From Faecalibacterium longum CLA-AA-H243 (GTDB lineage Bacteria; Bacillota; Clostridia; Oscillospirales; Ruminococcaceae), in assembly GCF_020687245.1 (NCBI RefSeq), contig NZ_JAJEQG010000019.1, forward strand, positions 1 to 53,089: a stretch of DNA of 53,089 nucleotides, written 5' to 3'. Position 1 is the first letter of the stretch, and every line of letters begins with the position of its first letter. Shown one piece after another: positions 3,284-52,941 of the stretch. The translations under genes were made by a program, and so were the position numbers. A model generated the notes under the pieces. It had not been told where the DNA came from and ran no database searches. It saw only the letters and a program-made list of their open reading frames with translations.

Positions 3284-4051
3284 ATGAAGATCTACTATTT
3301 TGGTGCAGAGGATGCCCCGGTGCTGTTGCTGCTGCCGGGCACCTGTTGCCATTGGAAAAGCAATTTCGGTGCCGTGATCCCGCTTCTGGCTGACAGCTTC
3401 CGGGTGCTGTGCGTCAGCTACGATGGCTTTGATGAGACTGAACAGACCGAATTTCCCACCATGCTGGAGGAGACCGAAAAGATCGAGGCCTACCTCAAGA
3501 CCCACTGCGGCGGTCACATCCGGGCGGCCTACGGCTGCTCTCTGGGCGGCTCGTTTGTGGGGCTGCTGGCGGCACGGCAGAACATCCACATGGACTGTGG
3601 CATTCTGGGCAGCTCCGATCTGGATCAGGCATCGCCGCTGGCGGCAAGATTGCAGACTGATTTTCTGCTGCCATTGATCTACCCTGTGGTGCGGGACGGA
3701 AAGATTAAGGCGAAATTTCTCCAAGAACGTCTGGACAAGTGTGCTAAAGAGCCGGGGGATTATGTCAAAGCCTTTCTGAAAATGTTTGGCGATGCCCGCC
3801 CTTATGTGACCATGCAGAGCTGTAAAAATCAGTTCTACTCCGATCTTATCACTCCGCTGCCGGATAAGATCCATGTGCCCGGTACCGAGATCCATATCTT
3901 TTACGCCCTGAAGATGGGCAAAAAATACCGTGTCCGGTATCAGCAGCATTTTGCACATCCTGTTCTCCATGAGCAGAACTTGCAGCACGAGGAATTGCTG
4001 GCCTGTCATCCGGTGCAGTGGGCGCATCTGGTAAAAAGCATTGCATTGTGA
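3284..4051 (+). CDS. Alpha/beta hydrolase
   Basis: A 255-residue protein. An N-terminal strand ends in LLLLPGTCCHW (oxyanion-hole region), and a nucleophile elbow GCSLGG places Ser86 as the likely catalytic residue. SYDGFDE at 45-51 is shared in form with the paralogue at 8487 (SFDGFDG), so the two come from duplication. No signal peptide, so it should act in the cytoplasm on a small ester, amide or thioester; the substrate is unknown. GAAGGAG lies upstream of the start. It is the first gene of the cargo operon. The last 50 residues are less typical, and the catalytic His could be in HEELLACHPVQW. Confidence 0.8.
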   Translation: MKIYYFGAEDAPVLLLLPGTCCHWKSNFGAVIPLLADSFRVLCVSYDGFDETEQTEFPTMLEETEKIEAYLKTHCGGHIRAAYGCSLGGSFVGLLAARQNIHMDCGILGSSDLDQASPLAARLQTDFLLPLIYPVVRDGKIKAKFLQERLDKCAKEPGDYVKAFLKMFGDARPYVTMQSCKNQFYSDLITPLPDKIHVPGTEIHIFYALKMGKKYRVRYQQHFAHPVLHEQNLQHEELLACHPVQWAHLVKSIAL

Positions 4052-4152
4052 ACGGTAAAACGTATCTGGAGCAAGCAGGATTTTGTAAGATCCAGAACCA
4101 CAAAAATAAAAAGGGCTGGCTGTGCATCACAGCACAGAAATGAGGTGTAATC

Positions 4153-33564: not shown

Positions 33565-33849
33565 ATGGGGCAGGAAAAGCAGACTGCGGCCAAGGGACAG
33601 GAAAGTCTCCGGAAAGCCACCGACACCCTGAGCACCATGCTGGCGCAGGAGGTGAAAGATTTGAATGCCCGCCAGCGCACGGCCCGCCGAGAGAACAGCA
33701 CCGACCCCGGAATCATGAAGGGACTGAAAGAAGCGACTGCTGTGCTGAAAGACCTGGCGGGCGTGTCGAAGACCCTGAACGACCAGGGCGTGGACGCAGA
33801 AGGGCGGGAGTGCGGCGTGGTGCTGCTGCCGCCGGTGGAGGATGTATGA
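33565..33849 (+). CDS. Small phage-module protein upstream of terminase
   Basis: 94 residues, charged and helical, Gln/Lys/Glu-rich with likely coiled coil over residues 5-45. AAAGGAAGTGAG lies before the ATG. It overlaps the terminase start, and this place is where a small terminase subunit is normally encoded, so that is a candidate role. I see no clear helix-turn-helix, so the assignment is by position only. Confidence 0.6.
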   Translation: MGQEKQTAAKGQESLRKATDTLSTMLAQEVKDLNARQRTARRENSTDPGIMKGLKEATAVLKDLAGVSKTLNDQGVDAEGRECGVVLLPPVEDV

Positions 33850-35294
33850 TGGCAGAAAACAAGAATGCGGGCGTCGTGTGGAGGCCTCAGCCGAGGCAGA
33901 TGGAATTTATGCGGAGGCCGGAGCCGGAAGCACTTTACGGCGGCGCGGCCGGCGGCGGTAAGAGCGACGCCCTCGTCATCGAGGCGCTGCGGCAGGTACA
34001 CATTCCGCACTACCGGGCGCTCATCCTCCGCAAGACCTATCCGCAGCTTTCCGACCTCGTGGACAAGAGTCAAAGCTATTACCGCCGGGCCTTTCCGGAG
34101 GCGCAGTACAACGCCACGAGCCATGTGTGGGTCTTCCCCAGCGGGGCGAAAATTTACTTCGGCTCGATGCAGTACACCAAGGACCGGACGAACTATCAGG
34201 GCAAAGCTTTCGATTTCATCGGGTTCGACGAGCTGACCCACTTCGAGTGGGAGGAGTACAGCTACATGATGAGCCGCAACCGCCCCACCGGCCCCGGCAC
34301 CCGGGTGTATCTGCGGGCCACCACCAACCCCGGCGGGGTGGGCCACGGCTGGGTGAAGGCGCGGTTCATCACGCCCGCTCCGCCCGGCACCCCCATCGTG
34401 GAGGAATACCCGGTGCGGATGCCGGACGGCACCGAAAAGGTGCTGCGGCGGGCGCGGGTGTTCATCCCGTCCAGCATCTTCGATAACCCAGCCCTTCTGG
34501 AAAATGACCCGGACTATCTGGCCAGCCTCGCGGCCATGCCGGAGGCCGAAAAGCAGGCGCTGCTCTACGGCAGCTGGGACAGCTTTTCGGGGCAGGTGTT
34601 CACCGAGTGGCGGAATGACCCGAACCACTACGAAGACCAGCGCTGGACCCACGTCATCGCGCCGTTCACCATCCCGAAGCACTGGAAAATCTACCGGGGC
34701 TACGATTTCGGCTTTTCGAAGCCGTTCTCGGTGGGGTGGTACGCGGCGGACGAGGAAGGGCGGCTCTACCGCATCAAGGAGCTGTACGGCTGCACCGGAC
34801 GCCCCAACGAGGGTCTGCGCATCGACCCGGTGGAGCAGGCACGGCGCATCCGGGAGGCCGAGCAGAACGACCCGGTGCTCCGGGGCAGAGTCATTCAGGG
34901 CATCGCCGACCCGGCCATCTTCGACGAGAGCCGGGGCGAGAGCATCGCCGCCATGATGGAGCGGGGGCCGAACTTTCTGCACTGGATGCCCGGCGACCAC
35001 ACCCGTCTGGCGGGCAAGATGCAGATGCACTACCGGCTGAATTTTGACGGCGAGGGCAGGCCGATGCTGCAGGTGTTCAATACCTGCAAGCACTTCATCC
35101 GCACCATCCCGAACCTCGTGTACGACGAGAGCAATGTGGAGGACATCGACACCCGGCAGGAAGACCACATCTACGATGAGTGCCGCTATGTGCTGATGGA
35201 AAATCCCATCTCGCCGCCCCGGCATACATCGGCCCCGCCGGTGCTGGATGACCCGCTGGAGCTGCATCGGAAGGCGAAATTTCTGAGGGTGTAA
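33849..35294 (+). CDS. Phage terminase large subunit
   Basis: 481 residues. Walker A ALYGGAAGGGKSDALV (about 28-43) and Walker B FDFIGFDEL near residue 124 form the packaging ATPase; RGYDFGFSKPFSVGW with its Asp starts the RNase-H-like nuclease, and GIADPAIFDESRGES supplies further acidic residues. It cuts and pumps DNA into the prohead. GGAGG at 33836-33840 fits ATG 33849 (8 bp); ATG 33846 is the alternative. No frameshift or stop, so the motor gene is intact. Confidence 0.95.
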   Translation: MAENKNAGVVWRPQPRQMEFMRRPEPEALYGGAAGGGKSDALVIEALRQVHIPHYRALILRKTYPQLSDLVDKSQSYYRRAFPEAQYNATSHVWVFPSGAKIYFGSMQYTKDRTNYQGKAFDFIGFDELTHFEWEEYSYMMSRNRPTGPGTRVYLRATTNPGGVGHGWVKARFITPAPPGTPIVEEYPVRMPDGTEKVLRRARVFIPSSIFDNPALLENDPDYLASLAAMPEAEKQALLYGSWDSFSGQVFTEWRNDPNHYEDQRWTHVIAPFTIPKHWKIYRGYDFGFSKPFSVGWYAADEEGRLYRIKELYGCTGRPNEGLRIDPVEQARRIREAEQNDPVLRGRVIQGIADPAIFDESRGESIAAMMERGPNFLHWMPGDHTRLAGKMQMHYRLNFDGEGRPMLQVFNTCKHFIRTIPNLVYDESNVEDIDTRQEDHIYDECRYVLMENPISPPRHTSAPPVLDDPLELHRKAKFLRV

Positions 35295-35297
35295 AGG

Positions 35298-35314
35298 CTC
35301 TCCCTTTGGGAGAG
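35298..35314. repeat. CTCTCCC/GGGAGAG hairpin between terminase and portal genes
   Basis: Perfect 7-bp arms around TTT, part of AAGGCTCTCCCTTTGGGAG. The form resembles short palindromic intergenic repeats common in Faecalibacterium-type genomes (from memory, not checked). It may process or stabilise the mRNA between the two genes. A GGGAGAG-bearing hairpin also lies after the module at 43345-43436. Confidence 0.5.
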
Positions 35315-35378
35315 GCTGGGGGCGGAGAAAAACGATAGCGCCCTGCAACAGAGGGCAGGAAGGAGAAAAACAAATACT

Positions 35379-37151
35379 ATGGATGAAGCAACAAAACTGC
35401 CCATCGGGCCGGAAGAGGTGGCTGAGGCTGCGCAGATCTTGCAGCGGTACAAGGCGGGCAAGGCCGCGCTGGACAAGCGCCTGGTGGACAACGAACTGTG
35501 GTTCCGGATGGGACACTGGAAGAACTACCAGAACCCCATGATGGAGGGCAAACCCCAGCCGTCCAGCGGCTGGTTGTTCAACTCCATCGCCAACAAGCAT
35601 GCCGACGCGATGGACAACTACCCCAGTCCCAACGTCCTGCCCCGTGCCGAGGACGACGAGGCAGCGGCACAGGCGCTTTCCAGCGTGCTGCCCGTGGTGC
35701 TGGAACAGGCTGACTATGAGCGGGTGTACAGCGACACCTGGTGGCGCAAGCTCAAGCAGGGAACCGGAGTCAAAGGCGTGTTCTGGGATTCGGAGCAGCG
35801 GGGCGGTGTGGGCGAGATCGCCATCCGGCCCATGAACCTGCTGATGCTCTACTGGGAGCCGGGCGTGGACAATATTCAGGCGTCGCCCCACTTTTTCTCG
35901 CTGAGTCTGGCCGACACGGCTCAGCTGGAAAGCCGCTGGCCCCAGCTGGCCGGACATACTGCCAGCGTGCTGGACGTGCCGCATTACATCCACGACGGCG
36001 GCCTTGATACCAGCGACAAGAGCGTCGTGGTGGACTGGTACTACAAAAAGCTTTCCCCCGAGGGCAGGAGCGTCCTGCACTACTGCAAGTTCTGCAATGG
36101 CGTGGTGCTCTACGCCAGCGAGAACGACCCGGCGCTGGCCGAAAGAGGCTTCTACGACCACGGCAAGTATCCCTTTGTGTTCGACGCGCTGTTCATGGAA
36201 GAGGACAGCCCGGCGGGCTTCGGGTACATCGATGTGATGAAGGAGTGCCAGACCGCCATCGACAAGATGAACCACGCCATGGACGAGAACGTCCTGCTCT
36301 CGTCCCGCCAGCGGTATGTGCTGAGCGACACGGCGGGCGTCAATGAGGAAGAGCTGACTGACCTGTCGCGGGACATCATCCATGTGGTGGGGCGCCTGAA
36401 CGACGACAGTTTCCGGCCGTTGCAGACGGCGGGTCTGCAGGGCAACAGCCTGAGCTACCGCAACAGCCGCATCGAGGAGCTGAAGGAGATCAGCGGAAAC
36501 CGTGACATGACCCAGGGCGGCACCGCAGGCGGCGTGACGGCAGCTTCGGCCATCGCGGCCTTGCAGGAGGCGGGTTCGAAGCTCAGCCGGGATATGCTCA
36601 AGAGCGCTTACAGGGCATTTGCCAAAGAGTGCTACCTTATCATCGAGCTGATGAGGCAGTTCTACGACGAGGAGCGCATCTTCCGCATCACCGGCAAGAG
36701 CGGCGAGAGCGAGTTCGTCCGCTTTTCGGGCCAGGTGCTCCGCGCCCAGCCTGCAAGAGTCGTGGGCGGCGTGGAGCTGGGCAGTCATGAGCCGGTGTTC
36801 GACATCGTGGTGAGTGCGGAGAAAAAGTCCACCTTCTCCCGCCTGTCGCAGAACGAGACGGCCAAGGAGTGCTATCAGCTGGGCTTTTTCGCCCCGGCCA
36901 ACGCCGACGCCGCGCTGGCGGCGCTGGAAATGATGGACTTTGAGGGCATCGAAAAGGTGCGCCAGAGGGTGCGTCAGAACGGCACCCTTGCCCAGCAGCT
37001 GGCGCAGATGCAGGCCCAGATGGCCCAGCTGACGGGTCTGCTGGAAGTGCAGAAAAAGTCCAAAGCCCCCAAGCTCAGCGGCCCGGCACAGGAGCTGAGC
37101 ACGGCTGCAATGGCGAGGGCGATGAAGACGCAGAAAGGAGAAATGAGATGA
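35379..37151 (+). CDS. Phage portal protein (podovirus-like)
   Basis: 590 residues. Features of large podovirus-type portals: WFRMGHWKNYQNP and GWLFNSIANKHADAMDNYPSPNVLP near the N-terminus, then DWYYKKLSPEGR, FGYIDVMKECQTAIDKMNHAMDENVL and EISGNRDMTQGGTAGGVTAASAIAALQEAG, the late helical part. The C-terminal 60 residues are Gln/Met-rich coiled coil. It forms the ring through which DNA enters and leaves the capsid and docks the terminase. GAAGGAG lies upstream, and its stop overlaps the next start by 4 bp. Confidence 0.9.
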   Translation: MDEATKLPIGPEEVAEAAQILQRYKAGKAALDKRLVDNELWFRMGHWKNYQNPMMEGKPQPSSGWLFNSIANKHADAMDNYPSPNVLPRAEDDEAAAQALSSVLPVVLEQADYERVYSDTWWRKLKQGTGVKGVFWDSEQRGGVGEIAIRPMNLLMLYWEPGVDNIQASPHFFSLSLADTAQLESRWPQLAGHTASVLDVPHYIHDGGLDTSDKSVVVDWYYKKLSPEGRSVLHYCKFCNGVVLYASENDPALAERGFYDHGKYPFVFDALFMEEDSPAGFGYIDVMKECQTAIDKMNHAMDENVLLSSRQRYVLSDTAGVNEEELTDLSRDIIHVVGRLNDDSFRPLQTAGLQGNSLSYRNSRIEELKEISGNRDMTQGGTAGGVTAASAIAALQEAGSKLSRDMLKSAYRAFAKECYLIIELMRQFYDEERIFRITGKSGESEFVRFSGQVLRAQPARVVGGVELGSHEPVFDIVVSAEKKSTFSRLSQNETAKECYQLGFFAPANADAALAALEMMDFEGIEKVRQRVRQNGTLAQQLAQMQAQMAQLTGLLEVQKKSKAPKLSGPAQELSTAAMARAMKTQKGEMR

Positions 37152-38101
37152 TAAAAGTAAACTACACCGAGCTGGATGGCCCGGCAGGCCCCACCTGTCG
37201 GCTGGAAGCTTCGGGCCATGCGGGCTATGCCCCCGCCGGGCAGGACATCGTGTGTGCGGGGGCCAGCACCCTGATGCAGACCCTCTGCGCCCTGCTGGCG
37301 GGCGAGGAAGGCACCAGGAGCGGCGTGTGGGATGAGCCGGACGGCCCGCGTCTGGCCGTGACGGCGGCAGCACCCCAGAAGCCGTGGGTGGAGGGGGCGT
37401 TCGAATTTGCAAAGGCGGGCTTTGCTCTGCTGGCAGAACGCTACCCGGACAATGTCCGCTTCGCCGATTTGAGCGGACGGGGAGAACAGTCGATGGTGGA
37501 TCTGCAGCTCTTTGCCTCGGAGGGCGGCGATGCCGCCGCCCCCTCCGCTCCTGCCCTCAGCCATGCACAGGCTCAGCAGGCCATCGCCTCCGGGACTATG
37601 AAGGCGGATGAGGGCCGGGAAGCTTCGGATGTGCCGACACCGGCGGCAGTGCAGGAGCCGGAAGAGCGTCCTGCACCGCCCGAACGCCCTGCGCCGCTGC
37701 CGCTCCCGCCCATCCCGGGCCTGAGAGAGGGCGCGAACACCGTCCGCGCCCTCCACGCCCGCTGGGCGGCGGAAGAGGCGATGCTTCGCCGGGATATGCC
37801 GGATTTTTCGCTCAAGCAGGAGCTGGCGAACCCCGAGATGCGCCGCCTGATGGAGCTGCCCGGGATGCGGATGGGTGACGCCTACCGTCTGGCCCACTAC
37901 AACGACGCTCTGCGTCAGACCGCCCAGACCGTGGAGCAGGGCGTTGTGGAGCGCATCCGCCAGCGTTCGGCCCGCCCGGCGGAAAACGGTACCAGCCCCG
38001 GTGGTGCGGCCATCACCCGGGCCGATGTGGCCAGCATGACCCGCGCCCAGCGTGAGGCACTGGAACGCCGTGCGATGCACGGGGTGAAGATCAGTTTTTG
38101 A
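37148..38101 (+). CDS. Prp-type cysteine protease fused to scaffold-like region with internal LQLFA site
   Basis: 317 residues. Residues 1-107 match the ribosomal-processing cysteine protease Prp: SGHAGYAPAGQDIVCAGAST gives His24 and Cys36, 12 apart as in Staphylococcus Prp, and the rest of the fold follows (VEGAFEFAKAGFALLAERYPDNV). Next comes MVDLQLFASEGG with LQLFA at 119-123, the kind of site Prp cuts in L27 and some phage proteins. Residues 125-317 are Ala/Pro/Glu-rich, then helical, like a scaffold. The gene lies between portal and capsid, the normal scaffold-protease place. Inference: the protein releases its own scaffold and also trims the capsid. It could instead be a stand-alone regulator. 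Confidence 0.88.
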   Translation: MIKVNYTELDGPAGPTCRLEASGHAGYAPAGQDIVCAGASTLMQTLCALLAGEEGTRSGVWDEPDGPRLAVTAAAPQKPWVEGAFEFAKAGFALLAERYPDNVRFADLSGRGEQSMVDLQLFASEGGDAAAPSAPALSHAQAQQAIASGTMKADEGREASDVPTPAAVQEPEERPAPPERPAPLPLPPIPGLREGANTVRALHARWAAEEAMLRRDMPDFSLKQELANPEMRRLMELPGMRMGDAYRLAHYNDALRQTAQTVEQGVVERIRQRSARPAENGTSPGGAAITRADVASMTRAQREALERRAMHGVKISF

Positions 38102-38129
38102 AAATTTTGATACAGAAAGGACAAATGAC

Positions 38130-39149
38130 ATGAAAAACTACAACCTGAAGATGGACCTCCAGCTCTTTGCCGACCCTTCTGCCAGCCTGCAGAACACCAC
38201 CGGCACCATGACCAACGAGATGAAGACCTTCTACGAGAAGCGTCTTATCGACCAGGCAGAGCCCCGTCTGGTGCATGACCAGTTCGCGGACTACTATCCC
38301 GTACCCCAGAACGGCGGCAAGACCATTGAGTTCCGCAAGTACGACAGCCTGCCCAAGGCCGATACCCCGCTGACCGAGGGCGTGACTCCCAACGGCCAAA
38401 CCCTGAATGTGACCACCATCACCAGCGACCTGCACCAGTACGGCGGCTGGACTCCGCTCACCGATGTGCTGCAGATGACGGCCATCGACAACAATGTGGT
38501 ACAGGCCACCCGCGTTCTGGCAAGCCAGGCGGGCCGCACCATGGACAGCATCACCCGCGATGTGCTGGCCGGCGGCACCAACGTCATCTATGCGCCGAAG
38601 CTTTCCGCAGACGGCACCGAGACTGCCGTCACCAGCCGCAAGGCGCTGGACAAGAGCTGCACCCTGACCCCGAAGCTGTTCTTCCAGGCTGCGGCACAGC
38701 TGGGCGCGATGAACGCTGACCCCATCGGCGACAGCTACATCGCCATCATCCATCCCTACGCCGCCTACGACCTCAAGACCTGCAAGGAGTTCATCGAGGC
38801 CCACAAGTACGCCGACCCCGACACCATGTACCGCGGCGAGATCGGCAAGCTGGGCAACATCCGCTTCATCGAGACCAGCGAGGCGAAGATCTGGAAGGAC
38901 GCTACCTGTCCGGAGGGTCTGGCCGTCTTTGGCACCCTCGTGCTGGGCGCCCACGCCTACGGCGTCACCGAGCTGGAAGGCGGCGGCCTGGAGCACATCG
39001 TCAAGCAGCTGGGCTACGGCGACGATCCGCTGAACCAGCGCGCCTCTGTGGGCTGGAAGGGTATGCGCGCCGCCGAGCGTCTGGTGGAGCAGTACATGGT
39101 GCGCATCGAGAGCGTGTCCAGCTATTCCACCACTGCGGCGGCAAACTGA
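38130..39149 (+). CDS. N4-gp56-family major capsid protein with N-terminal LQLFA motif
   Basis: 339 residues. DQFADYYPVPQNGGKTIEFRKYDSLPKADTPLTEG, YGGWTPLTDVLQMTAID and the GEIGKLGNIRFIETSEA region are typical of N4-gp56-type capsid proteins. The first residues, MKNYNLKMDLQLFADP, carry LQLFA at 10-14, like the cleaved leader of L27 in Firmicutes, so the mature protein may begin at Ala14. The putative protease is encoded directly upstream. AGAAAGGAC precedes the start. The sequence is intact, and the protein would build the icosahedral shell. Confidence 0.93.
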   Translation: MKNYNLKMDLQLFADPSASLQNTTGTMTNEMKTFYEKRLIDQAEPRLVHDQFADYYPVPQNGGKTIEFRKYDSLPKADTPLTEGVTPNGQTLNVTTITSDLHQYGGWTPLTDVLQMTAIDNNVVQATRVLASQAGRTMDSITRDVLAGGTNVIYAPKLSADGTETAVTSRKALDKSCTLTPKLFFQAAAQLGAMNADPIGDSYIAIIHPYAAYDLKTCKEFIEAHKYADPDTMYRGEIGKLGNIRFIETSEAKIWKDATCPEGLAVFGTLVLGAHAYGVTELEGGGLEHIVKQLGYGDDPLNQRASVGWKGMRAAERLVEQYMVRIESVSSYSTTAAAN

Positions 39150-39170
39150 GCCGGCCGGAAAGGAGAAGCT

Positions 39171-39386
39171 ATGGCAGAAAAGAAGAATGTCCGCATCCGG
39201 CTGTTCAAGGACAACAGCCGGTACAAGGGCGATCTGTTCGTGAGCGTCAACGGCGTGAACTACAAGATCCGCCGGGGCGTGGAGGTGGAAGTGCCGCCTG
39301 AAGTGGCCGAGGTGCTGGAACACAGCCAGCAGCAGGACGAGTACACCGCCGCCCGCATCGCTGCGGCAGAGACTGCGGCCCAGTAA
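39171..39386 (+). CDS. Small phage structural protein of unknown function
   Basis: 71 residues: basic N-terminus KKNVRIRLFKDNSRYKGDLFVSVNG, then NYKIRRGVEVEVPPEVAEVLE and an Ala/Gln-rich tail. A beta-rich core with a proline turn suggests a head decoration or completion protein; proteins like this often follow N4-gp56 capsids in clostridial phage modules. It ends just before the internal terminator. Confidence 0.75.
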   Translation: MAEKKNVRIRLFKDNSRYKGDLFVSVNGVNYKIRRGVEVEVPPEVAEVLEHSQQQDEYTAARIAAAETAAQ

Positions 39387-39399
39387 AATAAGACAACGC

Positions 39400-39445
39400 G
39401 GCCCGGCAGAAACGGCGGAGAAGGCCGCTTCTGCCGGGCCTTTTT
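39400..39445 (+). terminator. Terminator inside the phage module, after the capsid genes
   Basis: Perfect 12-bp arms GGCCCGGCAGAA (39400-39411) and TTCTGCCGGGCC (39429-39440) around a 17-nt loop, then TTTTT. It should reduce transcription of the downstream tail genes relative to capsid, a usual arrangement in phages. Confidence 0.85.
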
Positions 39446-39469
39446 GGAAAAAGCGAAAGGAGGCTTTTT

Positions 39470-39853
39470 ATGACGGTAGGAGAAGCGATGGAGCGAGCCG
39501 AAGAGCTGCGCCCGGGCAGCCGTGTCGCGGCCCGCACCCGGCAGCGCTGGCTGTGCGAGGTGGACGGGATGCTGCGGGAGAAATTTTTCCGGCCCAGCAG
39601 CGCCGACAGCCGGGAGGGCGTGGGCGCGGACATTGCGTGGGACAACGGCCTGCGGGATGACGACGTGCTGCTGGTGCCGCCGCCCTTCGACAGCCTGTAC
39701 CCGCACTATCTGTGCGCCATGACGGACGCCGCGCTGGGCGAGAACGACCGGTACGCCGGTGAGCAGGCTCAGTACAACGGCATCTTAGCCGAACTGGCCG
39801 CGTGGCTGCGGCGGAAGAATCTGCCCACCCGGGGCTGCAGCTGGCGTTGGTAA
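39470..39853 (+). CDS. Phage head-tail connector-like protein
   Basis: 127 residues, mostly helical: MTVGEAMERAEELRPG, then a Trp/Arg-rich region, and SLYPHYLCAMTDAALGENDRYAGEQAQYNGILAELAAWLRR near the C-terminus, the shape of small adaptor or connector proteins that bind the portal. AAAGGAGG precedes it. Family match is by position and helix pattern only. Confidence 0.65.
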   Translation: MTVGEAMERAEELRPGSRVAARTRQRWLCEVDGMLREKFFRPSSADSREGVGADIAWDNGLRDDDVLLVPPPFDSLYPHYLCAMTDAALGENDRYAGEQAQYNGILAELAAWLRRKNLPTRGCSWRW

Positions 39854-39865
39854 GGAGGGAGAAAG

Positions 39866-41749
39866 ATGATACTTTCGAACCGGAACGGCCTGAAAAACAC
39901 ACGGAACATGCTGCGGGTGTTCGGCGGGCTGAACGAGACGTACAGCTGCACCGAGGCAGAGTACAGCGCGGGCATCAACTTTTCGGCCCGGAATTTCCCG
40001 GCCCTGAGCACCCGTCTGCCCCGGCGGAAGCTGCGGGAGGAAGCAGACCTGAACGGGATGTATCACCTGAACGGCCTGTTGACCGTCTGCGGCAGAGACC
40101 TCGTCTACACGCCGGATGATGCTGATGAGATGGAAGTGACCCTGAAAGACACCGTGGAGAACGGCAGGAAAACGCTGGTGGGCATCGGAACGAAGATCCT
40201 GATCTTCCCGGACAAGCTGGCTTTCGACACTGCCAGCCGGAAGGTGAGCGCTCTGGGCGCGGTGTGGTCGGGCAAAAACACCAGCGTAGAGTTTGCACCC
40301 TGCGACGCGGAAGGCAAGGTCTACGAGGTGAGTGGCTGCGGCCCTGCTGAACCCGACAAGCCGACGGACGGCCAGCTTTTCCTGCGGGTGGAAGACCCGG
40401 AAAAGCCATGGAGCAGCGAGAGCACGCTGGAAGTATATAGTGAGGCGTCCGGCAACTGGTCGGCGGTGGTGCTGGACTACTGCCGCATCTCGGCAAAGGG
40501 GGTGGGAACAGACTTTGCAGCAGAGGACACCGTGACCCTCACCGGCTCTGCAGCAGAACAGGCCGGGCAGTGGAACGAGCTGGACGGCGACCGCATCGTC
40601 TACGACGCCGGCGCAGATGCTCTGCGCGTCAAGGCCGACCCGGGCGGCGAGTGGTTCTATGGCCGTCTGACCCGCACCGGCGCAGCGGTAAGATGGGTGA
40701 GTCTGGACGGCAGCGTCAGCCGGGAGTTCGTCTCGGCAGAGGTGGTGGAGCTGGAACGCCGGGTGCCGGATATGGACTACCTGACCGAGTGCGACAACCG
40801 GGTGTGGGGATGCTCCAACAAGGAGAACGTCATCTACGCCTGCAAGCTGGGCGACCCCACCAACTGGTTCTCCTACCGGGGTATTGCCGCCGACAGCTAT
40901 GCTGTGACCGTGGGCAGCGACGGGGCATTTACCGGCGCGGCTACCTGTATGGGATACGCGCTTTTCTTCAAGGAAAACACCCTTCACAAGCTTTACGGCT
41001 CCAAGCCCTCGGATTTCCAGCTCAGCAGCCTGCGCTGCCGGGGAGTGGCAAAGGGCGCTGCCCGGAGCCTCTGCGTCATCAACGAGACACTTTATTATCT
41101 CTCGCCCGACGGCGTGATGGCCTGGGACGGCAGCATCCCCACCAAAGTCTCGACGGCCCTCGACCCGGCCCGGCTGCGGAACGTGAAGTCGGCGCTGGGC
41201 GGCGCGCTGGACGGGCGGTATTATCTGCACCTCGTGCGGGGCAGCGGCGAAGCCCAGGCCGTGCGGCTGCTGGTCTACGACACCGAGCGGGGGCTCTGGC
41301 AGGAGGAAGATGTCTGCTCCTACGAGATGGCCGGAAGCGGCGGGCAGCTCTATCTCTGGGACGGAAAGGCCATCTGGGCCGCAGATGCAGACCGGGAGGA
41401 GAACTGGCAGCAGGCGGGCGGTATCGAGGACGGCGTGAGCTTCGAGCTCGTCAGCGGGAACATCGGGCTGGACAGCCCGGAAGAGCTGTATCTCTCCCGG
41501 CTGACGCTCCGGCTCGAGGCCGAGGTGAAGAGCCGCATCGAGGTGGCTGTGAGTTACGACAGCGGAGCGTGGGAGACACTGGCCCAGCTGACCGCCGACG
41601 GGCGGCGCTGCTTCGATGTTCCGTTTGTGCCGAGGCGGTGCGGGAGCCTGCGGTTCCGGCTGAAGGGCAGAGGTCAGCTCACCCTGCGCAGCCTGACCCG
41701 GACGAGCGCCGCCGCGAAGGGCGGCATTCTGGCACAGGAGGTGAACTGA
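39866..41749 (+). CDS. Large phage tail protein, tail-hub or stabilization-type candidate
   Basis: 627 residues, mostly short beta strands: RNMLRVFGGLNETYSCTEAEYS, then repeated GxxxxxW-type blades such as TECDNRVWGCSNKENVIYACKLGDPTNWFSY, YYLSPDGVMAWDG and GGQLYLWDGKAIWAADADRE. This looks like a beta-propeller, as in the P22-type tail-stabilization proteins that bind below the portal. AAGGAGGGAG precedes the start. No receptor-binding or enzymatic motif is visible. Role inferred from order and fold pattern. Confidence 0.62.
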   Translation: MILSNRNGLKNTRNMLRVFGGLNETYSCTEAEYSAGINFSARNFPALSTRLPRRKLREEADLNGMYHLNGLLTVCGRDLVYTPDDADEMEVTLKDTVENGRKTLVGIGTKILIFPDKLAFDTASRKVSALGAVWSGKNTSVEFAPCDAEGKVYEVSGCGPAEPDKPTDGQLFLRVEDPEKPWSSESTLEVYSEASGNWSAVVLDYCRISAKGVGTDFAAEDTVTLTGSAAEQAGQWNELDGDRIVYDAGADALRVKADPGGEWFYGRLTRTGAAVRWVSLDGSVSREFVSAEVVELERRVPDMDYLTECDNRVWGCSNKENVIYACKLGDPTNWFSYRGIAADSYAVTVGSDGAFTGAATCMGYALFFKENTLHKLYGSKPSDFQLSSLRCRGVAKGAARSLCVINETLYYLSPDGVMAWDGSIPTKVSTALDPARLRNVKSALGGALDGRYYLHLVRGSGEAQAVRLLVYDTERGLWQEEDVCSYEMAGSGGQLYLWDGKAIWAADADREENWQQAGGIEDGVSFELVSGNIGLDSPEELYLSRLTLRLEAEVKSRIEVAVSYDSGAWETLAQLTADGRRCFDVPFVPRRCGSLRFRLKGRGQLTLRSLTRTSAAAKGGILAQEVN

Positions 41750-41751
41750 AC

Positions 41752-41940
41752 ATGGCAAGTGTCACGGGACTTTCGAAGATCGGACTGCCCCATCTGAGCG
41801 AGAACATGGACGCGGAGGATGCCCGCGCCATCCGTAACTACTTATACCAGATGCAGGAGCAATTACAATATGTGCTCTGCAATCTGGACGTGGAAAATAT
41901 GTCGGAGCCGCTGCGCGCCCGGCTGAACAGCATCCAGTGA
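41752..41940 (+). CDS. Small phage protein, 62 residues
   Basis: ATG at 41752 starts MASVTGLSKIGLPHLSENMD and ends at 41940 after LRARLNSIQ. CAGGAGG lies upstream, overlapping the end of the tail gene, so it is co-translated. Helical, with NYLYQMQEQLQYVLCNLDVENM as an amphipathic stretch. A candidate small tail or plug protein; family unknown. Confidence 0.7.
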   Translation: MASVTGLSKIGLPHLSENMDAEDARAIRNYLYQMQEQLQYVLCNLDVENMSEPLRARLNSIQ

Positions 41941-41953
41941 GAAAGGAGAATTT

Positions 41954-43264
41954 ATGAGCACCGAGAAAAAGAAAGAACAGCAGCTGCTGGAAGATGTGAC
42001 TGCCCAGCCTGCAGTCCAGTCCTCCTACAGCACGGCGGGACTGAACAGCCGCAAAGAGGTGGAGAATGCACTGACAAATGCGGTGTACACCCCCGGCCAG
42101 AGCGTCACCGACGCAGCAGCGGACCTGAAAAACTGGCAGCAGAACCGTCCGGGCAAGTATGAGAGCACCTATCAGGGCCGCATCGAAGACCTCATCGGTC
42201 AGCTGCTGGAGCGGAACAGCTTCCAGTACAGCTATGCACAGGACCCGCTCTACCGCCAGTATGCCCAGCAGTACACCCAGAACGCCCGCAACGCCAGCGC
42301 GGACGCCGCCGCACAGGCTGCGGCCCTCACCGGCGGCTACGGCTCCAGCTATGCGGCCAGTGTGGCCCAGCAGGCGTACCAGCAGCAGATGGGCGCGCTG
42401 AACGACGCCCTGCCGTCCCTCTACCGGCTGGCGTTGGACACCTACAACAGTGAGGGCGACGATGTCGTGACCCGAATCGACCAGCTCAACACGCAGGAGC
42501 AGAACGCACAGGCGCAGTATAACGCGGAGCTGTCGGACTATTACAGTCAGCTCGACCGGAAGGGCAGCGCCTACAATGCTGCCTACGAGCAGGACTATGG
42601 TCGCTATCAGGACTATCTGGGCCGGCTGGACACCCTGTACGGCTACTATTCCAATCAGGAGCAGCAGGCCATCGCCAAGCGCCAGCAGACGTTCAATAAT
42701 GTGCTGAGCATTCTGGGCGTTATCGGCGACGCGGTGCAGCTGGCCATCACCGGGACCACCGGCATCGGCTCGCTGGTGGGTACGCTGGCCAACACCGGGT
42801 ATAATATGTATGCCAAAGACCGCGCCTACGCGGCCGAGCGTGCTGACGCTGCGTGGGACCAACAGATGCAGGAGACCCAGCGGCAGGACAGCCTTGCCCA
42901 GCAGAAGTACAAGAACGAGCAGGCGGAGCGGCAGTATCAGGACACCCTGCGCCAGCAGGAGTTCAACAACAATGTGACCAGCGAAAAGCTGAATATCGCC
43001 AAGGGCGAATGGGCGCTCAAGCAGTCCAAGGCAGCCCAGAGCGCCCAGCAGGCTGCGGCAAACGCCGGGGCAAAGAGTGCGGGCAGTTCGGGAGGCTCGG
43101 GCAGCGGGTCGGTGCTGTCGTCCGGAGGCGGCACCATCGTACCTTACAGCGCAGCCCGCCTCTACCGGCAGGGCAGGAGCGACACGGCCATCCGCAGCGA
43201 ACTGCTGAAGGAGGGCTACTCCAACGATGAGGTCGCCAATATCCTAAAGCAGTTGGGAAGCTGA
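41954..43264 (+). CDS. Phage internal/ejection-type protein candidate
   Basis: 436 residues, very rich in Gln, Ala and Tyr with long helices (residues 90-320) and repeated YxxY/QQ patterns such as YRQYAQQYTQNARN and YGYYSNQEQQAIAKRQQ. Around residues 250-285 is a hydrophobic Gly-rich segment (VIGDAVQLAITGTTGIGSLVGTLANTGYNM) that could insert in a membrane. This composition is typical of podovirus internal proteins that are ejected to form a channel. The tail end SGGSGSGS is a flexible linker before a small domain, RQGRSDTAIRSELLKEGYSNDEVANIL. AAAGGAG precedes it. Confidence 0.6.
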   Translation: MSTEKKKEQQLLEDVTAQPAVQSSYSTAGLNSRKEVENALTNAVYTPGQSVTDAAADLKNWQQNRPGKYESTYQGRIEDLIGQLLERNSFQYSYAQDPLYRQYAQQYTQNARNASADAAAQAAALTGGYGSSYAASVAQQAYQQQMGALNDALPSLYRLALDTYNSEGDDVVTRIDQLNTQEQNAQAQYNAELSDYYSQLDRKGSAYNAAYEQDYGRYQDYLGRLDTLYGYYSNQEQQAIAKRQQTFNNVLSILGVIGDAVQLAITGTTGIGSLVGTLANTGYNMYAKDRAYAAERADAAWDQQMQETQRQDSLAQQKYKNEQAERQYQDTLRQQEFNNNVTSEKLNIAKGEWALKQSKAAQSAQQAAANAGAKSAGSSGGSGSGSVLSSGGGTIVPYSAARLYRQGRSDTAIRSELLKEGYSNDEVANILKQLGS

Positions 43265-50944: not shown

Positions 50945-51023
50945 GCCGATGTGGCGGAATGGCAGACGCAAACGACTCAAAATCGTTCGGGAAACCATGT
51001 GGGTTCGAGTCCCACCATCGGCA
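50945..51023 (+). tRNA. tRNA-Leu (CAA anticodon)
   Basis: GCCGATG pairs with CATCGGC, the anticodon loop is CTCAAAA (CAA), the T arm is GTGGGTTCGAGTCCCAC, and the discriminator is A at 51023; CCA is not encoded. The variable region is about 11 nt, short for tRNA-Leu. It is the only complete copy here and abuts the integrative element on its 3' side. Confidence 0.9.
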
Positions 51024-51032
51024 CTTCATCAT

Positions 51033-51068
51033 AAAACAGCTTAGGATCGAAAGATTTTAGGCTGTTTT
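51033..51068. terminator. Terminator after tRNA-Leu
   Basis: AAAACAGC (51033-51040) and GCTGTTTT (51061-51068), with an inner imperfect stem closed by GAAA, followed by more T. It also faces the 3' end of the integrase gene. Confidence 0.75.
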
Positions 51069-51085
51069 TCTTTTTTGCCCATTTT

Positions 51086-52573
51086 TTATACTTTGGCGTT
51101 TTCTGGGAAGATATTGACGATTGCATTCGCCGAAGATACCTTACTGGAGAAATCCAGATGTGTATAAATGTTGCTTGTCGTGCTGATGTCGCTGTGCCCC
51201 AGCCACTCCTGAATCTCCTTCAGGCTCACGCCATTGGCATAGAGCAGACTGGCGCAGCTATGGCGCAGATCGTGAAAGCGGATACGCTTCATCTGGTGTG
51301 CGACCAGAAAATCCGGGAAATGTTGGCTCAGGAAATCGGGCCGAATCCGTTTTCCCATCGGGTCTACATAGATATAGTCAAGATAATCGGTGCAATAGCT
51401 TTTGCCGCAGACCTTCCGATTCTGCTCCTGCTCCTTTTTCATTTTATTGAGCATCTGCTCACAGGCAGGGATTAGGGGAAGTGTCCGGCAGCTCGACTTT
51501 GTTTTTGTCTTATCTCGTGCGATTTCTGTTAGCGTTCCGTTGACCTTTGCGGTCACAACCGTATGCTGAATGCTGATTTTCTTGTTTTCAAAGTCAATGG
51601 CATCCCATTTCAAGCCAACAACTTCACTGCGCCGCAGGCCGTAGAATGCAGCCATGATAACGCCAAACTCCGAAGGGTCACCTTGAATCGCTTTGAAAAG
51701 CTGCTCCAGTTCTTCACCGCTGTAAATCTCCGACTTGAACTTTTCCTTACGAGGACGTTCAACGCGATCTGCCGGGTTGGAACGGATCATGCCGATTTGA
51801 AAAGCGTACTGCAAGCATTTGCGGATGTTGGCGTGATAGTGAATGACGGTGTTTGCCGTAAGGCCACGATCCAACTCATGCTGGTAGAAGTCTTGGATGT
51901 ATTTGGGATGCTGTTCCATATCCTGCAATGTATAGTGGAGCGGTTCAAAATATGGGACGATCTTGTGAACGATTGCTCTTTCATAGCTGGTATAGGTTGT
52001 GATTTCCACTCGTGACTTCATCATTTTCAACCAGTCCGTGATGAAGTCGGTGAAAAGTACCGGGGAGTTATCAAGGCAGGGGTCAACTTCTTTGATGGGG
52101 CTGACCTTCAGCCAATTATTGTCAACGGCATATTGTAGGGCATCGGTCAACTCCTTGTGCCAATCCAGAAGCTGCTGTACACTGGCCTCCTCCTGCTGAC
52201 GCTCATAGCGGAAGAACGTTTCCAGATCGCGCGGAGAGAGTGCTTTCAAAGACAGCCGCTTCTTTTCAAAGTATGGGACAACTACTCTTCCCAGATCACT
52301 GCCATAGGTTTCGGGCGGAAGGTTCATCACGCTTTCTCGAAGCCAGCGGTTCAGATATTCCGATACCGGCAGGTCGGAAACCTGCTGCATCGTTTCAGGG
52401 TTAAACTCTTTTTGTGTTTTACGCAACAGAGATTCAGCTCTTTTTTTGTTTCCTTTAACAGGAAGTCCTGTGCTGATGGATTTGGTTCTGCGCTTTCCAT
52501 CTGTGTCTTTCCAGCTCAGAATCATCTGATACATACCGTTTTGTTCTCTTAAATGTCCGGCCACATTTGTCAT
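51086..52573 (-). CDS. int: Tyrosine site-specific integrase
   Basis: 495 residues. An N-terminal arm-binding domain (MILSWKDTDGKRRTKSISTG), a SAM-like core-binding domain (about 170-280) and a catalytic domain with AAFYGLRRSEVVGLKW (first Arg), RFHDLRHSCASLLYANG (His and second Arg), LGHSDISTTSNIYTHL (His and nucleophile Tyr). It integrates an element at the tRNA-Leu whose 3' end is 63 bp away, with the gene pointing towards att as usual. An insertion around 130-200 makes it longer than many relatives. AAAGGAG precedes ATG 52573. The element body lies beyond the right window edge. Confidence 0.95.
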   Translation of the reverse strand: MTNVAGHLREQNGMYQMILSWKDTDGKRRTKSISTGLPVKGNKKRAESLLRKTQKEFNPETMQQVSDLPVSEYLNRWLRESVMNLPPETYGSDLGRVVVPYFEKKRLSLKALSPRDLETFFRYERQQEEASVQQLLDWHKELTDALQYAVDNNWLKVSPIKEVDPCLDNSPVLFTDFITDWLKMMKSRVEITTYTSYERAIVHKIVPYFEPLHYTLQDMEQHPKYIQDFYQHELDRGLTANTVIHYHANIRKCLQYAFQIGMIRSNPADRVERPRKEKFKSEIYSGEELEQLFKAIQGDPSEFGVIMAAFYGLRRSEVVGLKWDAIDFENKKISIQHTVVTAKVNGTLTEIARDKTKTKSSCRTLPLIPACEQMLNKMKKEQEQNRKVCGKSYCTDYLDYIYVDPMGKRIRPDFLSQHFPDFLVAHQMKRIRFHDLRHSCASLLYANGVSLKEIQEWLGHSDISTTSNIYTHLDFSSKVSSANAIVNIFPENAKV

Positions 52574-52575
52574 AG

Positions 52576-52941
52576 TTATGCTCCTTTCTGTTCGCAGCCA
52601 AACGTCCTTTGCTTAGGCATCATAAGTTTAGAAGATTCTGGAGTGTTTTGCAAGGATGGCACAAGGGAGTTTGAAAGGTGCATCCCTCCAAGTTGCCGAT
52701 CCTGATCGAGCAGGTACTCTACCACGCAGAGTTTTGGTATCTTATAGCTGCGTCCTACACGCGCCGAGTGGATCTTATTCTGCTTGACCAACAGATACGC
52801 ATTCTTCCGGCAGATGCCAAGCATTTCCTGAAGATGCTCCACCGTCACCACATCCGGGTAGTCCTTGAACATCGTCAGATACCTCTCCGTCTTTCGGTCA
52901 GGCTCTTCCTGAATCAAAGTGCAGGCTGCGATCTCGCTCAT
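52576..52941 (-). CDS. Excisionase-like helix-turn-helix protein
   Basis: 121 residues. VVTVEHLQEMLGICRKNAYLLVKQNKIHSARVGRSYKIPKLCVVEYLL is the MerR/excisionase-type HTH plus wing that bends DNA at att sites. It sits 2 bp before the integrase start in the same transcript, the common xis-int order. The N-terminal 25 residues may be extra; a start at MFKDYPDVV would leave the core intact. The last 35 residues are unlike the family. Confidence 0.85.
   Translation of the reverse strand: MSEIAACTLIQEEPDRKTERYLTMFKDYPDVVTVEHLQEMLGICRKNAYLLVKQNKIHSARVGRSYKIPKLCVVEYLLDQDRQLGGMHLSNSLVPSLQNTPESSKLMMPKQRTFGCEQKGA

Follow-up and report, generated by a model that had tools for sequence, protein, structure and literature searches.

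In the staphylococcal phage 80alpha, the capsid and scaffold proteins are both cut at an F|A bond by the Prp protease of the host (PMC5744158). The leader of the 80alpha scaffold is required but its cutting is not, and a folding or chaperone role was proposed by the authors (PMC5744158). Prp goes together with a long form of ribosomal protein L27, on which it has also been proposed to act as a chaperone (PMC9405229). In Streptococcus phage Cp-1, a protease of MEROPS family C108, the family of Prp, trims the head protein (PMC12445089), after about 40 (PMC9405229) or 48 residues (PMC12445089), depending on the review. In lambda and P2, protease and scaffold come from one gene (PMC8508860), and herpesvirus UL26/UL26.5 comprises an N-terminal serine protease, a release site and an in-frame overlapping gene for the scaffold only (PMC4498786). 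Here we describe a gene of Faecalibacterium longum CLA-AA-H243 in which a Prp domain is joined, through the motif LQLFA, to a scaffold-like tail. The gene (37148-38101, + strand) lies in a stretch of 53,089 nucleotides (contig NZ_JAJEQG010000019.1, positions 1 to 53,089; hereafter the window), within a head-gene cluster that is almost certainly the gene transfer agent FpGTA I. The gene is likely to encode the FpGTA I head-maturation protease, a Prp cysteine protease at the scaffold N-terminus that would free itself and trim the capsid protein.

The Prp domain, the scaffold-like tail and the LQLFA sites

The fusion protein has 317 residues, and its gene is placed between those of a P22-type portal (35379-37151, +; PF16510, 98.9 bits) and a major capsid protein of the N4-gp56 family (38130-39149, +; 339 residues; TIGR04387, 323.8 bits). 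A Prp-like domain with His24 and Cys36 had been proposed in the first-pass annotation, and this was borne out. In a Pfam profile search, residues 1-103 (37148-37456, +) match PF04327 with 49 bits (E 7.2e-13; curated cut-off 27), and a PHROGs family labelled 'peptidase' matches the same part. The putative catalytic core (37217-37255, +) consists of His24 (37217-37219), Asp33 (37244-37246) and Cys36 (37253-37255), with the same 9- and 3-residue spacing as H22, D31 and C34 of the Staphylococcus aureus enzyme, SaPrp (PMC9405229). All three residues are invariant in 16 of 16 aligned fused proteins (the window's included), and the His and Cys in all 50 rows of an alignment to which separate Prps were added.

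Structure prediction, proposed earlier as a check, gave a Prp fold. An AlphaFold2 model built from 50 aligned sequences is confident over residues 1-110 (block means 82 to 98); beyond the Prp domain the linker is weakly predicted, and long helices follow it (mean pLDDT 81.3, pTM 0.42 for the whole model). The top Foldseek match is S. aureus Prp (7kld; E 1.6e-7, TM by target 0.80), another structure of which, 7jvs, was also matched. The first 14 matches in the PDB (E < 0.001) are to S. aureus Prp, SMU.848, an S. pneumoniae protein and TM1457, the last three of which we take to be of the same family as Prp. Profile, spacing of the His-Cys dyad and structural Asp, and fold thus agree in placing the domain in Peptidase_Prp (PF04327, MEROPS C108). 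The domain is not of the L27-processing host type (ysxB equivalog): the NCBIfam Prp equivalogs score far below their cut-off, and the gene does not lie between rplU and rpmA with a long L27.

Among the Prps of related head-gene modules, some lack the Asp before the catalytic Cys (GNIVC or GSIVC in loci L093, L095, L096, L099 and others; L and G numbers are our handles for loci and genomes). They keep the His and Cys, the spacing of which also varies among modules.

The tail (37517-38098, +) begins with an Ala/Pro-rich linker and continues with predicted helices at residues 192-216, 251-275 and 299-310; residues 197-317 match phrog_13908, a PHROGs family of unknown function. We call it scaffold-like from its position, the predicted helices, the Ala/Pro-rich linker and this match.

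Between the two parts lies LQLFA (residues 119-123; 37502-37516, +), the predicted release site, with F122|A123 as the candidate bond. The capsid protein, which begins MKNYNLKMDLQLFADP, carries the same motif at residues 10-14 (38157-38171, +), with a predicted cut at F13|A14. Both motifs read as first annotated. Composition gives an expectation for LQ[LMF]FA of 0.0006 occurrences in the fusion protein and of 0.00003 in some 20 N-terminal positions of the capsid. In the 16 aligned fused proteins, down to 34% identity with the window's, LQxF (L119, Q120 and F122) is invariant, while the linker around it varies. The composition expectation and this invariance argue that the sites are more than chance, and the invariance upholds the earlier view of a Prp fused upstream of a conserved site. 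A site follows the Prp domain in all 41 fused loci described below, 38 times of the LQ type and three times as LC[QR]F.

A short repeat (...GG[NC]RE..LGxR...) is present in the linker of two fused genes, followed by a second LQxFA (L001, around 3949-4130; L205, around 12596, - strand). A similar repeat lies upstream of the Prp in L017 (around 3484), and the window has one shortly after the end of the cluster (about 43457, - strand).

The motif was also sought in the whole host genome with a degenerate DNA pattern, which in addition allows F at the first place and I at the third; it gave 32 matches against 7 for the reversed pattern. Among the 30 matches with loci (two have none), only those in the capsid, L227 and L240 have LQ[LMF]FA no more than 45 residues from where a frame of at least 100 amino acids opens. 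Neither of the latter two was retained as an extra substrate: L240 runs antisense to the gene of a sensor kinase, and L227 (C11:125921 of the same genome) is a sigma-factor-like open reading frame (ORF) fragment starting ...LLTLLQFFASK, probably a chance match.

How does this arrangement compare with the described ones? It shares with 80alpha the F|A motif at the N-termini of both scaffold and capsid, but the 80alpha enzyme is the L27-processing Prp of the host, whereas that of the window is encoded in the operon and fused to the scaffold. The Cp-1 protease is likewise a phage-encoded member of the Prp family that trims a head protein; unlike the window's, it is a stand-alone protein of 104 residues without fusion. 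Cp-1 orf13, which we take to be this protease, scores 18.5 bits against PF04327, under the cut-off of 27, and was missed by our in-house Prp profile at the threshold used. With lambda, P2 and UL26 the likeness is in the design, as the window has Prp and scaffold-like tail in one frame with a candidate site between them. The proteases differ in family: UL26 is a serine protease, and the lambda and P2 proteases, too, belong to families other than Prp. Among isolates of phages that infect lactic acid bacteria, separate prp genes are found close behind the portal position in Enterococcus phiFL3A, Lactococcus PLgT-1 and TP712, and Oenococcus Krappator149 (L195, L196, L197 and L199), where they are annotated as peptidase, DUF464 domain or unknown. 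The scaffold and capsid of these phages have LQxFA near their start (LQRFS in the TP712 capsid). Unlike in the window, prp is separate, with a gene for a minor head protein between prp and the scaffold gene (so annotated in three of the phages and inferred in TP712). A search of open-licence literature, which left most subscription papers outside, brought up no account of a Prp fused to a scaffold. As far as searched, then, the fusion is undescribed; it is a new combination of known designs rather than a new kind.

The cluster matching FpGTA I and its host

The cluster comprises ten genes in about 9.7 kb (33565-43264), all on the + strand. It opens with a small ORF at the position of the terminase small subunit (33565-33849), possibly TerS; it has a tblastn match in 15 of 17 loci of the genus, and its role is taken from the description of FpGTA I. 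The terminase large subunit follows (33819-35294, start codon assumed; PF03237, phrog_979), then portal, fusion gene and capsid, and finally p71 (39171-39386), p127 (39470-39853), p627 (39866-41749; phrog_511, 'internal virion protein'), p65 (41746-41940) and p436 (41954-43264). When the eight ORFs of 33.8-43.3 kb were searched against Pfam and PHROGs, and six of them against NCBIfam as well, the families matched were of head, portal, terminase and internal-virion types; integrase, replication and lysis families had no match.

FpGTA I was described as ten ORFs spanning 10.5 kb, or 9.6 kb by the coordinates of one strain, among which TerS, TerL, portal, head scaffold and capsid are named (Borodovich et al., 2026; PMC12946183). 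It was present in all twelve Faecalibacterium genomes examined there. The FpGTA particles are 40 nm in size, with no visible tails, contain 8.4-8.9 kb of host DNA, and yielded capsid and portal in mass spectrometry; tail and lysis genes sit in a second locus (PMC12946183). The main text of that report names the head scaffold without using 'proteas-', 'peptidase', 'cleav-' or 'Prp', and its authors note that further structural or maturation genes might await identification (PMC12946183). The window cluster resembles FpGTA I in its ten ORFs, whose order agrees wherever a gene is named, in a similar length, in the lack of replication genes and in being genus-wide. Four strains of that study are among our loci (ATCC 27768, L097; APC922/41-1, L101; APC923/51-1, L067; APC923/61-1, L079). 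It is on gene content, order, size and shared strains that the cluster is almost certainly FpGTA I. The first-pass annotation had called it a phage module; it is a head-gene module with its own Prp, as stated, but belongs to this agent and not to an ordinary phage. FpGTA I is reported to package random host DNA in Faecalibacterium strains other than that of the window (PMC12946183). In the text consulted of a paper on Faecalibacterium prophages, no mention of a gene transfer agent was found (PMC11792537).

The cluster is genus-wide. PF04327 was matched in 30 of 31 Faecalibacterium genomes (the window's included) and in 22 of 22 of high quality; there is one match in 28 genomes, two in G062 and G065, and none in G060, which is 80% complete. 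In a sample of 148 genomes drawn from the whole family the capsid family is present in 19, two of them Faecalibacterium. We chose 17 genus loci by hand, mostly on large contigs, from 32 PF04327 matches. The order TerL, portal, Prp-scaffold, capsid, p71, p127, p627, p65, p436 is kept in these 17 loci (15 genomes), and 12 have a tRNA-His/tRNA-Arg/PAP2/DUF1643 flank in common. The flanks differ in L201, L215 and L216, and L209 and L211 are divergent second copies. With second copies excluded, the median dN/dS against the window over 15 pairs is 0.134 for the Prp part, 0.085 for the capsid, 0.278 for the scaffold part, 0.378 for p127 and 0.327 for p436, compared with 0.094-0.243 for flanking host genes (4 to 12 pairs); these values are rough because dS is near 1.

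The host has no other Prp that we could find. In the window genome (99.98% complete), a PF04327 search at E up to 10 gave no match besides the fusion gene; Escherichia coli, one of the controls of that search, gave none. The genes for L21 and L27 are adjacent, without prp between them, and L27 begins MAHKKGVGSTKNG (MAHKKGVGS), that is, without a leader. The earlier suggestion that the module could do without the host enzyme thus holds more strongly than it was made, since no other Prp was found in the host genome; the companion suggestion, an effect on host L27, fails here on both counts. At the level of sequence, Prp in this genome appears to be dedicated to the particle, given the leaderless L27 and a host search that showed no other Prp.

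A survey of 50 host genomes of the 80 loci from a genome scan, 20 Faecalibacterium and 30 others, extends these observations. PF04327 was matched once in each of the 20, or twice if the genome had contributed a second module (G004, G014); for some of them (such as G001, G004 and G014) coordinates confirm that match and collected module coincide. Fifteen Faecalibacterium genomes gave a readable L27, and in every one it begins MAHKK and lacks a leader (the window's and 14 of the 20; G015 and G018 were not parsed, and G006, G008, G013 and G016 gave no L27 match). Host L27 was accordingly rejected as a target in the window host and these 14 others. A leaderless L27 is also found outside the genus, in G021, G046, G047 and G050. 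Prp adjoins L27 in 23 of the 30 non-Faecalibacterium genomes, and L27 is long in 22 of the 23 (G048 was not parsed). The idea that a module carries Prp to compensate for a Prp-less host was dropped as a general rule, since these 23 hosts have more than one match. Three fused loci (L095, L096, L099) sit in such hosts. In a Prp gene tree the 23 host Prps form one side of a branch with support of 74, too weak for the direction of Prp origin to be read from it.

At the right end of the window (50945-52941), a tyrosine-integrase-like ORF (51086-52573, - strand) and a small excisionase-like ORF, both labelled by eye, lie by a tRNA-Leu gene. They probably belong to another mobile element.

Fused and separate Prps in related modules

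A search for Prp fusions beside related capsids, as the first-pass annotation had advised, yielded them in quantity. Loci with related capsids were collected from two scans of viral contigs (62) and from a genome scan with the capsid alignment (the best 80 of 399); the 142 include redundant contigs (such as L001/L003 and L002/L005), and their Prp state was called with a Prp profile built for this analysis. In 41 loci Prp is fused, in 80 a separate prp lies upstream of the scaffold gene, and in 21 none was found. Twelve of these 21 contigs begin within about 1.3 kb of the capsid, two (L111, L131) are borderline and seven have about 5 kb upstream. In one of the seven, L021 (around 5001), portal-like sequence passes directly into the capsid frame, as if a Prp-scaffold gene had been deleted or the contig misassembled.

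The two layouts have interchanged. In a capsid tree of 74 deduplicated loci (18 fused, 56 separate, those without a Prp state excluded), no fewer than three switches of layout are required by the starred branches, and four by the best tree. One fused group is in Ruminiclostridium-type hosts (L095, L096, L099), the others in Faecalibacterium and viral contigs. Both layouts occur inside Faecalibacterium, since Prp and scaffold are in different reading frames in five metagenome-assembled genomes (L078, L081-L083 and L085). Scaffold picks are rough for a few separate loci (for example L078 and L081-L083, which were read again). Against phage records, tblastn with the fusion protein matched 21. The four whose match spans 80% or more of the protein are unannotated faecal contigs, and the same holds for the six records with DNA near to that of the cluster.

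Two Faecalibacterium genomes have a second, divergent module with fused Prp (L084/L209 and L087/L211). Related copies, possibly true prophages, are in viral contigs of 38 and 70 kb (L020, L060). For L018, L020, L050 and L060, a second Prp-like domain within the scaffold was considered and dropped, the independent E-values exceeding 100.

If one enzyme cuts both sites, do the sites change together? They were compared in 64 of the 74 deduplicated loci; ten without one or both picks were dropped, and the automatic picks include the doubtful L121 and L133. Presence or absence of Q at P3 agrees between scaffold and capsid in 60 of the 64. The P3 letters are identical in 48, compared with a shuffled mean of 36 (none of 10,000 shuffles reaches 48), and the status of A at P1' agrees in 51. 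In G028, G029 and G031 the L27 leader ends SLQHF|A, and the module sites are LCQF or LCRF on the scaffold and LTQF or LRQF on the capsid, a hint that module and host enzymes may differ in taste there.

Proposed self-release, possible internal start and alternatives

We suggest the following course of events. The scaffold part would bring the protease into the growing procapsid. Prp would cut F|A in its own LQLFA linker, freeing the scaffold, and would cut the F13|A14 bond of the same motif in the capsid protein. Translation from an internal start shortly ahead of the linker site may add some free scaffold, a possibility on which the evidence is mixed. The candidate start (37479-37495, +) is the ATG of Met116 (37493-37495), three residues before the LQLFA site and behind a possible ribosome-binding site, GGGGAG (37479-37484). 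Shine-Dalgarno-like pairing averages -6.7 kcal/mol in 28 fused genes with a Met there and -3.5 at 265 other internal Met codons; the p-value of this difference is inflated because the genes compared are homologous and not independent.

Several observations weigh against this proposal. Both the self-cleavage and the capsid cleavage are steps that we infer. In the AlphaFold2 model the linker site is set in a short helix of low confidence, and the model gives no docking support. 80alpha with an uncleavable capsid or scaffold is viable (PMC5744158), so cutting may not be essential. In tree-aware tests, about three informative pairs go the same way and none the opposite way for Q at P3 (p 0.25), and about two and none for A at P1' (p 0.5); with so few independent pairs left after tree correction, the co-variation of the sites is suggestive only. 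Module Prp coexists with a host Prp in the 23 of 30 non-Faecalibacterium hosts that have more than one PF04327 match. Nor is a module-borne Prp universal: L021, L045, L049, L114, L129, L138 and L145, whose contigs extend about 5 kb beyond the capsid on its upstream side, gave no Prp match even with filters off, and several of these seven carry LQ-type sites. The fused gene of one genus genome, L205, has a broken reading frame. Finally, in 20 genes the region of the internal start shows no special conservation at synonymous positions (0.653, compared with 0.628 for the Prp part).

Could the two domains act mainly as separate proteins made from two starts, the fused form being a minor product? 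The position of Met116 and its pairing, stronger than at other internal Met codons, speak for this. Against it, synonymous conservation is not raised there in the 20 genes; within 16 codons, L012, L014 and L016 lack any in-frame start, and L013 and L018 have only distant ones. We consider it unlikely, though worth keeping in mind. Less probable still is that the Prp domain is mainly a non-cutting chaperone or tether for the LQLFA peptide, nucleating scaffold and capsid, with cleavage incidental. The 80alpha scaffold needs its N-terminal sequence and not its cleavage (PMC5744158), and a chaperone role has been proposed for Prp on L27 (PMC9405229), as this would have it. A pure tether is nevertheless disfavoured because it would not need the catalytic His and Cys that are invariant in 50 of 50 aligned sequences. 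It is very improbable that the locus is the head remnant of an ordinary cryptic prophage, in which the fusion is decaying and has no function: integrase, replication and lysis went unmatched in the family searches of eight ORFs and L205 has its broken frame, but Prp is kept in 30 of 31 genus genomes, dN/dS is low, gene order and flanks are shared across the genus loci, and published particles are made of the proteins of the matching operon (F. prausnitzii ATCC 27766; PMC12946183).

A self-releasing maturation protease, our preferred reading, may be part of a wider pattern. This gene transfer agent and related gut phages might run a bacterial, Prp-based counterpart of UL26/UL26.5, with both the fusion and, from an internal start, free scaffold made from one gene. 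The enzyme and its two sites might then have co-evolved into a private specificity, distinct in some relatives from the host Prp/L27 pair of the same cell (SLQHF|A as against LCRF|D and LRQF|D). This extension is tentative, and we hold it to be rather doubtful as a whole.

If the gene acts as proposed, the capsid N-terminus in the particles should begin at the Ala after LQLF. The gene offers a candidate for the enzyme that matures the gene transfer agent of a genus abundant in the human gut. Prp has been studied as a ribosomal enzyme and antibiotic target; the present results suggest that it is, besides, in wide use among gut phages and their kin as an enzyme of head assembly, even where the L27 of the host needs no Prp.

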